A DNA stretch of 64,000 nt, taken from assembly GCF_003574625.1 (NCBI RefSeq), contig NZ_QNUJ01000003.1:62001-126000 (forward strand), in the 5' to 3' direction. Within the stretch, counting starts at the first letter, position 1. Each line of letters begins with the position of its first letter. This DNA comes from Shinella zoogloeoides. GTDB taxonomy: Bacteria > Pseudomonadota > Alphaproteobacteria > Rhizobiales > Rhizobiaceae. Positions 7,810 through 9,790 of the stretch are shown piece by piece. A model generated the notes under the pieces. That model saw only the letters and a program-made list of their open reading frames with translations. It ran no database searches and had not been told where the DNA came from. A program made the position numbers and the translations under genes.

Positions 7810-7915
7810 GGAATGCGGCCTTGCGATGCAAAAAGAGGTTGCGGCAGAGGTGGCACGGCCCAAACTGTAGTTCAAGCCGTGACTTTTCACTGAAACGGGG
7901 TGGCGAAGGGCGCTC

Positions 7916-8374
7916 TTACGGGTTCCATTCCCCTGCGACCTGCCGCGTCGCGACGTTGAAGCGGTTCCACACATTGATCGCGGCGATCTCCACGACGAGG
8001 GCGGCGAGGGTCTTTTCGTCATAGTGGCGGGCGGCCTCGTTCCAGATCGCGTCCGGAACCGGCTCCTCGCGGTCGGCGATGCGCGTCAGCGCTTCGGTCA
8101 GCGCCAGCGCGGCGCGTTCCGCATCCGTATAGAACGGTGCCTCCCGCCAGGCGGCGACGGAAAGGATGCGCCGGTCCGTCTCGCCGGCCTTCTTCATCAT
8201 GCGCGGGTGGAGATCGACGCAGAAGCCGCAGCCGTTGATCTGGCTGGCGCGCAGATGGACGAGATGGGCGGTCTTTTCCGGCAGGCCGGATGTCTGTGCG
8301 GCACCCTGCAGCGCCTGCATGGCGGTCATGACATCGGGGAGAACGGTAACGATGTTGTTCATACGGGATTGCAT
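7916..8374 (-). CDS. AhpD-like carboxymuconolactone decarboxylase-family protein
   Basis: The 152-residue protein carries the AhpD-type redox centre C-x2-C-x3-H in NGCGFCVDLHPRM, so it is probably a peroxide- or thiol-linked oxidoreductase and not a true decarboxylase. AGGAG stands six bases before ATG 8374. Genes of this family are the standard partners of ECF41 sigma factors, and here one lies head to head with such a sigma gene. A matching promoter (GGTCACA and CGTC, 16 bases apart) on the minus strand at 8455-8481 points at this gene. The MFS gene follows on the same strand. Confidence 0.9.
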   Translation of the reverse strand: MQSRMNNIVTVLPDVMTAMQALQGAAQTSGLPEKTAHLVHLRASQINGCGFCVDLHPRMMKKAGETDRRILSVAAWREAPFYTDAERAALALTEALTRIADREEPVPDAIWNEAARHYDEKTLAALVVEIAAINVWNRFNVATRQVAGEWNP

Positions 8375-8419: not shown

Positions 8420-8446
8420 TGTCACACCGGTGCGGCTTCGTTCGTC
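8420..8446 (+). promoter_or_regulatory. ECF41-type promoter directed at the sigma gene
   Basis: TGTCACA (8420-8426), exactly 16 bases, then CGTC (8443-8446). This is the consensus I recall for ECF41 sigma factors. The CGTC box lies 36 bases before the sigma gene start, which suggests autoregulation. Confidence 0.75.
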
Positions 8447-8454
8447 ATGGCCAT

Positions 8455-8481
8455 GACGCCGCTGGACGAAGGAGTGTGACC
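8455..8481 (-). promoter_or_regulatory. ECF41-type promoter directed at the AhpD-like gene
   Basis: On the minus strand, GGTCACA (8481-8475), 16 bases, then CGTC (8458-8455), about 80 bases before the AhpD-like start. Only the first base differs from TGTCACA. Its -35 box overlaps the ribosome-binding region of the sigma gene, so polymerase binding here could interfere with sigma expression. Confidence 0.72.
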
Positions 8482-8482
8482 G

Positions 8483-9346
8483 ATGAGCGCGAAAAAATTC
8501 TGGGCCGAGCGTTTCGAGGCCGAACGGGGGCGTCTCGGCGCCGTCGCCTACCGCATGCTGGGCTCGCGCGCGGAGGCCGAGGATGCGGTGCAGGAGGCCT
8601 GGCTGCGCCTGCAGCGCGCGGGCGAGGGCATCGACAATCCCTCCGGCTGGCTGACCACAGTCGTCGGCCGCATCTGCCTCGACATGCTGCGTGCCCGCGG
8701 CAGGCGCCGCGAAGATCCGATCGATGGCGAGGAGGGGGAGATGCAGCATGCCGATCCGGCGGCGAGCGCCGACGAGCAGGCGGCGCTGGCCGATAGCGTC
8801 GGCCTTGCCCTTCTCGTCGTGCTGGAGCGCCTGACGCCGGCCGAGCGCCTCGCCTTCGTGCTGCACGACATGTTCGATGTGCCCTTCGAAGAGATCGGCC
8901 GCATCGTGGATCGTTCGCCCGTCGCCACCCGCCAGCTCGCAAGCCGCGCCCGCCGCCGCGTGCAGGGCCTGCCGGAAGCGCCGTCGGCCGATTACGAGCG
9001 TCGCAAGGGCGTCGTCGCCGCCTTCCTCGCCGCTTCGCGCGACGGCGATTTCTCGGGCCTGCTCGCAGTGCTCGACCCGGAAGTCGTCTTCCATGCGGAT
9101 GCCGATGCGGTGCGCCTCGGTTCGCTGGCCGAAATCACCGGCGCGCAGGCCGTCGCCACCAACTTCAAGGGCAAGGCGACCGCCGCGAGACTCGCGCTCA
9201 TCGACGGCGCTCTCGGCCTTGCCGTCATTCTCGGCGGTCAGCTCAAGGTGGTCGTGCTCATGGAAGTGGAGGGCGACCGGATCGTCGAGATCGAATCGAT
9301 CGCCGGCCCGGCGCGGATCGCCGCCATGGAGGTGGCGTATCTTTGA
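8483..9346 (+). CDS. ECF41-family RNA polymerase sigma factor with SnoaL-like tail
   Basis: A 287-residue extracytoplasmic-function sigma factor. Region 2 (about residues 10-75) contains YRMLGSRAEAEDAVQEAWLR, and region 4 (about 105-160) contains LTPAERLAFVLHDMFDVPFEEIG. The extra 120 residues form a SnoaL/NTF2-like domain. That tail, and the divergent AhpD-like partner, define the ECF41 group, in which the tail replaces an anti-sigma factor as the control element. The expected start context is present (AAGGAG, ATG 8483). The signal sensed is unknown. Confidence 0.93.
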   Translation: MSAKKFWAERFEAERGRLGAVAYRMLGSRAEAEDAVQEAWLRLQRAGEGIDNPSGWLTTVVGRICLDMLRARGRRREDPIDGEEGEMQHADPAASADEQAALADSVGLALLVVLERLTPAERLAFVLHDMFDVPFEEIGRIVDRSPVATRQLASRARRRVQGLPEAPSADYERRKGVVAAFLAASRDGDFSGLLAVLDPEVVFHADADAVRLGSLAEITGAQAVATNFKGKATAARLALIDGALGLAVILGGQLKVVVLMEVEGDRIVEIESIAGPARIAAMEVAYL

Positions 9347-9364: not shown

Positions 9365-9790
9365 TCAGGCCGCCGGTTCGAACCGGAGGATCCCGGCGAC
9401 CCGCGGGCCGGCGCCGGAATCCGAAGGATGGGAAACGCCGTCCATCACCTCCACCGCCGCGAAGTCGAAGGGGCTGATGCCTTCGATGCAGGCGACGTTG
9501 ATGCCGAACTGGTTCGGGTTGGAGCGGCGCTGGTGGTGGGTATAGATGCCGCAGGTCCTGCAGAAGTAGTGTTTCGCCGTGCCGGTGTTGAACTGGTAGA
9601 GCGTCAGGTTGTCTTCGCCCTGCTTGAATTCGATATCCGCGAGCGCTGCGGAGACGGCGATCGCGCCGCGCATGCGGCAGTAGGAACAGGAGCAGCGGCG
9701 GATCGTGTTGAATTCGTCCGTCAGCCGCACGCGGAAGCGGACGGTGCCGCAGTGACAGGCCGCTGCGTGCTGTTTTCTCTCGTCGCTCAT
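9365..9790 (-). CDS. GFA/CENP-V-family zinc protein
   Basis: A 141-residue protein of the glutathione-dependent formaldehyde-activating (GFA) fold. The zinc cysteines are visible as CHCG near residue 13, CSCSYC near residue 35, and CRTCG near residue 80. Most members have no proven activity, so a role in formaldehyde handling is only possible. ATG 9790 is preferred over the longer start at 9814 since GGGAGA lies at proper distance. It is convergent with the ECF41 sigma gene, 18 bp apart. Confidence 0.85.
   Translation of the reverse strand: MSDERKQHAAACHCGTVRFRVRLTDEFNTIRRCSCSYCRMRGAIAVSAALADIEFKQGEDNLTLYQFNTGTAKHYFCRTCGIYTHHQRRSNPNQFGINVACIEGISPFDFAAVEVMDGVSHPSDSGAGPRVAGILRFEPAA

Follow-up and report, generated by a model that had tools for sequence, protein, structure and literature searches.

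A 62-bp element of the window (the whole 64-kb stretch of DNA that we analysed) carries two complete ECF41-type promoters that face each other between a gene for an ECF41-like sigma factor and the divergent gene for its AhpD/CMD-family partner. We think it reasonably probable that this element is a self-activated bidirectional promoter on which two polymerases exclude each other, an exclusion that we infer from the geometry of the element.

Two ECF41-type promoters face each other between the sigma gene and its partner

The sigma gene (8483..9346, + strand) and the partner gene (7919..8374, - strand) are divergent and separated by an intergenic region of 108 bp. The partner is of the COE type and matches Pfam CMD (2.4e-21) and TIGR00778, in agreement with the AhpD-like protein proposed in the preliminary description. 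In the intergenic region we found TGTCACA-N16-CGTC pointing toward the sigma gene (8420..8446, +) and GGTCACA-N16-CGTC pointing toward the CMD gene (8455..8481, -), that is, the two facing motifs with 16-base spacers that had been described before. The -10 boxes are the inner ones and each -35 box lies beyond the opposing start region. The 8-bp gap between the -10 boxes, ATGGCCAT (8447..8454), is the centre of a perfect 16-bp palindrome, CGTCATGG/CCATGACG. The -35 box of the partner promoter (8475-8481) had been thought to overlap the ribosome site of the sigma gene; it abuts this AGGAG (8470..8474, +) without overlap and makes up, save one base, the spacer between AGGAG and the ATG at 8483.

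The motif KGTCACA-N16-CGTC has two matches in the window, and two together were found in 0 of 100 shuffles. Also, shuffling the 108-bp intergenic region gave a relaxed motif on both strands in 1 of 20,000 cases. Because of these controls, a chance origin of the motif pair is very unlikely. On its other side, the sigma gene is met by a convergent GFA-domain gene (glutathione-dependent formaldehyde-activating-like, 9365-9790, -).

The facing promoters are conserved in relatives chosen by protein similarity

Relatives were gathered by protein similarity alone and are therefore free of any bias toward the motif or its spacer. First, in a set of 77 loci, both promoters with 16-bp spacers were present in 14, namely the 12 nearest (L007-L018, identity 53-89%, gap 8) and two Humibacter loci (gap 9). 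The remaining 63 relatives, the Devosia locus L074 among them, lack the element, even at gaps of up to 60. L076 is a near miss, with a gap of 8 and one changed core base in the partner -35 box (GGTCGCA). At L037 the sigma-side match is weak (TGTCACG-N17-GGTC) and leaves 37 bp between the -10 boxes; if real, it would break the spacing rule set out below. Second, a further protein search covered 269 genomes of the order and found the sigma in 11, counting the window's own. Ten of these loci are divergent from a CMD gene and all ten carry the element with a gap of 8; L152 has CGTT in the partner-side -10 box. In L154, also from the order, the CMD and sigma genes lie on the same strand as an operon, and the only motif precedes the CMD gene.

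We aligned the elements of 22 loci (the window, L007-L018 and L145-L153; L154, which has no element, was left out), corresponding to 19 distinct sequences. The boxes were 96-100% identical and the spacers 79% and 67%. Across the distinct elements, the sigma-directed promoter was invariant at 10 of its 11 box positions and at 2 of its 16 spacer positions. A -35 box lay 0-2 nt before an ATG in all 22 loci. The presence of both motifs, the way they are arranged and how well they are kept can be read directly from the DNA, and the earlier statement that both directions are covered holds for the window and also for relatives that were selected by their protein.

In 26 of the 118 rows of our labelled set, the partner-side promoter stands alone, which suggests that self-activation would be dispensable there. 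That many Actinomycetota relatives have just the partner-directed copy also fits the alternative that this promoter alone is functional and that the sigma-directed copy is a relic. We hold this to be very improbable, given the near-invariant sigma-directed boxes beside a drifting spacer and a sigma-directed -35 box in the window (TGTCACA) that is nearer to the published consensus than GGTCACA.

Several loci of Streptomyces and kin (L026, L028-L030, L043, L050, L051, L057 and L062) have the partner-directed promoter alone, with its -35 box again close upstream of the sigma start codon. An inverted repeat of the type GATCCGT...ACGGATC, judged by eye to be conserved, surrounds the -10 box in these loci and is possibly an operator.

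The distance between the -10 boxes is nearly fixed and survives exchange of the partner

We then consider searches made with the promoter pattern itself, in which the gap between the -10 boxes was left free from 0 to 30 and 16-bp spacers were demanded on both sides. Loci with other spacers escape such searches; the protein-first sets are free of that bias and agree with the gap rule, apart from L037 and the near miss L076. Among 397 genomes of the order we obtained 14 matches, window included, all with a gap of 8 and all between a window-type sigma and a CMD gene. The 10 matches from 378 Pseudomonadota were all already in the 397-genome draw. We also picked a Pseudonocardia genome because it holds a relative, and searched 396 genomes of its phylum, itself included; 9 matched at 10 places with gaps of 8, 9 and 11. 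Finally, ten genomes picked via their loci gave 4 matching genomes and 6 places, among them L107 and L111, where the gap is 8 and the neighbouring gene is of the NAD(P)-binding and Polyketide_cyc2 type, respectively. All loci together provide 36 distinct strict elements, with a gap of 8 in 28, 9 in 4 and 11 in 4. These draws overlap, the loci of the 269-genome search coming largely from the same genomes, and the counts are not independent. No non-zero reversed-pattern control was seen in the free-gap pattern searches. The other divergent layout, back to back with the -35 boxes close together, does exist: it was found in 1 of the 397 genomes of the order, at a canonical ECF41 (L120 = L122).

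The gene across the element is not always the same. It encodes a CMD protein at L007-L018, L092-L105, L108 and, by likeness, L118; a Polyketide_cyc2/SRPBCC protein at L111 and, by likeness, L115 and L116; a NAD(P)-binding/NmrA protein at L107 and, by likeness, L117 and L119; a YceI protein at L070 and, by likeness, L059; and an ABC ATPase at L114, by likeness of the translation. At L112 and L113, translation gives a conserved 78-aa ORF on the other side of the element from the divergent sigma gene, which may encode a small partner protein. These identities come from Pfam for L070, L107, L108, L111 and the window, and from translations or tblastn for the rest. In three loci the element is intact and the sigma frame is broken, by an in-frame stop (L093) or a change of frame (L094 and L119), which would reflect either a pseudogene or an assembly error.

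The perfect palindrome at the centre of the window element could also mark the operator of another regulator, its likeness to promoters being incidental. We give this hardly any credence. The palindrome centre varies in relatives while the boxes with their exact 16-bp spacers hardly do, and each strict element with enough flank adjoins a window-type sigma: at the Pseudonocardia-phylum places a sigma homolog is adjacent in 9 of 10, and at the other (L115) just 36 nt of the frame precede the contig end.

The window sigma belongs to a sister clade of ECF41

The sigma protein, of 287 aa, consists of sigma2, sigma4 and a SnoaL/NTF2-like tail according to Pfam and Foldseek. Pfam matched regions r2 and r4_2. 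With the whole protein as query, SnoaL_2 did not appear at 1e-3; the tail alone matched it with 9.1e-05 and 23.4 bits, short of the curated cut-off (27). With Foldseek, SigJ (5xe7) came first (E 1.2e-12, TM 0.33, rmsd 20.5), SigJ and SigG1 (7qh5) leading at TM 0.32-0.34, and the tail was matched by NTF2-like proteins. The AlphaFold model has a mean pLDDT of 80 and a pTM of 0.45. Because of the low TM and the high rmsd, the model suggests that the window sigma and SigJ agree in their domains and differ in how these are arranged. At the sequence level, the protein is 89% identical to the sigma of Shinella curvata and 98.3% identical to that on an S. zoogloeoides record.

The preliminary description had named this protein an ECF41 sigma with a SnoaL-like tail. 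An ECF41-like sigma with a SnoaL-type tail it is, yet two hallmarks of strict ECF41 are missing. The WLPEP motif of the sigma2-sigma4 linker, literal in 19 of the 21 canonical ECF41 loci of the order, is absent, and so is the NPDKL-type motif near the C-terminus (NPDKL or NPEKL in 21 of 21), the aligned place being occupied by GPARI. The protein scored 205.9 bits against SigX4 TIGR02957 and 232.9 bits against SigJ NF007214, below the curated cut-offs of 323.25 and 271, respectively; across 140 genomes of the order, matches above the TIGR02957 cut-off occur in just 3. Two other ECF41 traits are present, namely an adjoining COE gene (the CMD gene at 7919-8374) and, before the partner, a promoter with one mismatch to TGTCACA-N16-CGTC.

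By searching the 140 genomes with the SigX4 model at E 1e-50, we found 25 loci, 21 of them canonical and 4 of the window type. The canonical loci scored 287-332 bits, with a CMD gene upstream on the same strand in 17, and none of these 21, all from the order, has face-to-face promoters. The 4 window-type loci, including the window, scored 203-216 bits and all 4 are face to face. We also built a tree from 99 proteins, that is, 118 labelled proteins minus 19 near-duplicates removed by hand; before labelling, we had removed duplicates and loci that were unrelated, as well as sigma frames that were broken or incomplete (L078, L093, L094, L115 and L119). The tree was made by a quick method that leaves 36 of 96 inner branches open, and a branch with SH-aLRT 100 splits the 21 canonical rows from the 78 others, window included. 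The face-to-face state occurs solely on the window's side and requires at least 7 changes of state, which is compatible both with repeated gain and with repeated loss. Its confinement to this side appears to hold for the rows sampled, those of canonical ECF41 coming from the window's order alone. Because WLPEP and NPDKL are absent and the tree separates it from the canonical rows, the window sigma is, judged by its sequence, a member of an ECF41-like sister clade and not of ECF41. Other SnoaL-bearing ECF groups include ECF294, ECF295, ECF56 and ECF205 (PMC8999054, PMC7730460).

A canonical ECF41 paralog has the same promoter sequence

A search of the whole genome for KGTCACA-N16-CGTC, as had been suggested earlier, gave 6 matches against 2 for the reversed control. 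Besides the window pair, it recovered a match before a second CMD-sigma operon (L006). The three others lie inside long open frames and are probably due to chance, with the caveat that open frames are of little diagnostic value in GC-rich DNA and that the L006 motif also lies in one. A wider regulon built on these three strict matches was considered and rejected, on account of the long open frames and of a reversed control that alone gives 2.

The second operon encodes a canonical ECF41 paralog with both WLPEP and NPDKL (G000 contig C25:180471-181295, -; L084/L006) and is preceded by TGTCACA-N16-CGTC, the same promoter sequence as in the window. Moreover, the region 4.2 stretches of the window sigma and the paralog, RSPVATRQLASRAR and RSPAATRQLAARAR, are nearly identical. 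Because of this shared promoter sequence and region 4.2, the two sigmas may activate each other's promoters. On the same grounds, the element could be served mainly by the paralog, or by both sigmas, as a cross-wired pair with no closed self-loop. We find this quite unlikely. Both sigma types do occur together in 2 of the 4 face-to-face genomes of the 140-genome draw (G000 and G112), but G023 and G035 keep the element with no canonical match at E 1e-50.

The MFS gene behind the partner lacks the motif

The MFS exporter gene behind the CMD gene had been put forward as a third target. We found no ECF41-type motif before it, neither in the window nor in any of the 8 relatives that have the gene (L007-L014), and the idea was dropped. 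An MFS homolog was not found in L015, L016 and L018; L017 offers just 365 bases past the CMD gene before its contig ends, too few to judge. What the window, L007 and L012 do share ahead of the MFS gene is a conserved stretch around GTCACGGCTTGAACT, perhaps the gene's own promoter or operator. In L007 and L012, the two relatives examined for this, a small ORF of ~107 aa, membrane-like by eye, lies between the CMD and MFS genes; the corresponding gap of the window (7812-7918, 107 bp) is without it.

A model of mutually exclusive initiation

To place the transcript starts, we used the distance known from S. meliloti RpoE9, where transcription begins 9 nt after CGTC (PMC3616915), and the start base G reported by Wecke et al. 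(PMC3426412). The sigma transcript is predicted to start at G8455 (+) and the CMD transcript at the G opposite C8446 (-), each 9 nt after CGTC and give or take a base or two. The predicted starts are 9 bp apart and each falls on the nearest base of the opposing -10 box. The predicted leaders, 28 and 72 nt long, would not overlap. Wecke et al. (2012) give a leader of 22/23 nt in their text and of 31/32 in their Table 5 (PMC3426412); the S. meliloti figure was used in place of these.

Recognition by the window sigma, the start sites, mutual exclusion and the effect on expression are all predictions drawn from the DNA, and they combine as follows. When its SnoaL tail permits, the sigma would bring RNA polymerase to either of the two full facing promoters, one firing the sigma gene and the other the CMD gene. 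Since the -10 boxes are 8 bp apart and the starts lie on the opposing -10 boxes, both open complexes would have to melt the same DNA, and one polymerase at a time could be accommodated. The outcome would be positive feedback on the sigma gene with co-induction of the partner, together with a ceiling on output, as each initiation one way would block the other. Positive autoregulation with a ceiling and a coupled partner output is thus the likely behaviour of the element, and self-limiting sigma expression, also raised in the preliminary description, is plausible.

That binding is exclusive should follow by analogy with bidirectional promoters of E. coli (PMC12825309) and with HrpL (PMC5263251). 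In E. coli, two opposing polymerases cannot be engaged together and interference was seen when the promoters were strongly activated, with no competition at basal activity (PMC12825309). For this last reason, the ceiling may matter under strong induction alone. The same observation, along with the shortness of the predicted leaders, is consistent with another reading, in which both promoters are driven by the sigma and their overlap is compact packing, with occupancy too low for interference and hence plain autoregulation plus partner induction. We regard it as rather improbable, though worth weighing. Packing does not readily explain why the gap takes solely the values 8, 9 or 11 within the 0-30 allowed in the pattern searches, nor why the geometry survives exchange of the partner gene.

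If exclusion is real, it would provide a protein-free brake for ECF41-type sigmas, which have no obvious anti-sigma partner (PMC3426412) and whose restraint is not settled. It would also mean that bidirectional promoters are used by a self-controlling ECF sigma as well as by the housekeeping sigma. The exclusion we propose is a prediction that can be checked by a single promoter mutation. More tentatively, and leaning slightly toward doubt, we suggest a portable module that pairs an ECF sigma with a bidirectional promoter, 62-65 bp long, symmetric and fixed in phase. In such a module, the sigma would compete with its own target for melted DNA and the partner could be swapped for unrelated genes; steric exclusion, instead of an anti-sigma protein, would then set the sigma:target ratio and the ceiling. 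The spacing of 8, 9 or 11 bp is a sequence signature by which further loci and their partners may be found.

Comparison with known systems

Experiments in B. licheniformis and R. sphaeroides have shown TGTCACA-N16-CGTC to be an ECF41 promoter (PMC3426412). Like the window sigma, Ecf41Bli and Ecf41Rsp have a large C-terminal extension, a CMD neighbour and this promoter (PMC3426412); unlike them, the window sigma has neither WLPEP nor NPDKL, and in the tree it is placed apart from the canonical rows. Wecke et al. (2012) counted 55 divergent ECF41 loci, of which 36 have the motif ahead of the sigma gene and 41 have it ahead of the partner (PMC3426412). As in the window, it often precedes both genes; dual promoters in divergent ECF41 loci are therefore already known, and the earlier view that ECF41 factors act without general self-regulation does not fit these counts. 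In the main text of that paper the words "overlapping" and "facing" occur 0 times, and we found no description of interleaved promoters with fixed spacing there, its supplement aside (PMC3426412). Nor did we meet the interleaved geometry, the near-fixed spacing or the independence from the partner in the literature searched, supplements and most subscription papers aside; the interleaved geometry may be in print elsewhere. The S. meliloti RpoE9-SMb20029 pair, classed by its authors as ECF41, resembles the window in having the same motif before its CMD gene, and differs in that CMD and sigma genes form one operon with one promoter (PMC6180224, PMC3616915).

Outside ECF41, the bidirectional promoters of E. 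coli (Warman et al. 2026, PMC12825309) resemble the window element as modelled above: their divergent starts are close together, most commonly 18 bp apart and often 10 or 23, and opposing polymerases exclude each other. They rely on a shared symmetric -10 and the housekeeping sigma (PMC12825309), whereas the window element has, for each direction, a complete ECF-type promoter with its own -10 and -35 boxes, one of the products being the sigma itself. At hrpL-hrpJ of Pseudomonas syringae (Waite et al. 2017, PMC5263251), polymerase on the adjacent divergent target limits the gene of the ECF sigma HrpL. There, in contrast to the ECF-type promoter of the window sigma gene, hrpL is read from a sigma-54 promoter and the effect is negative (PMC5263251).
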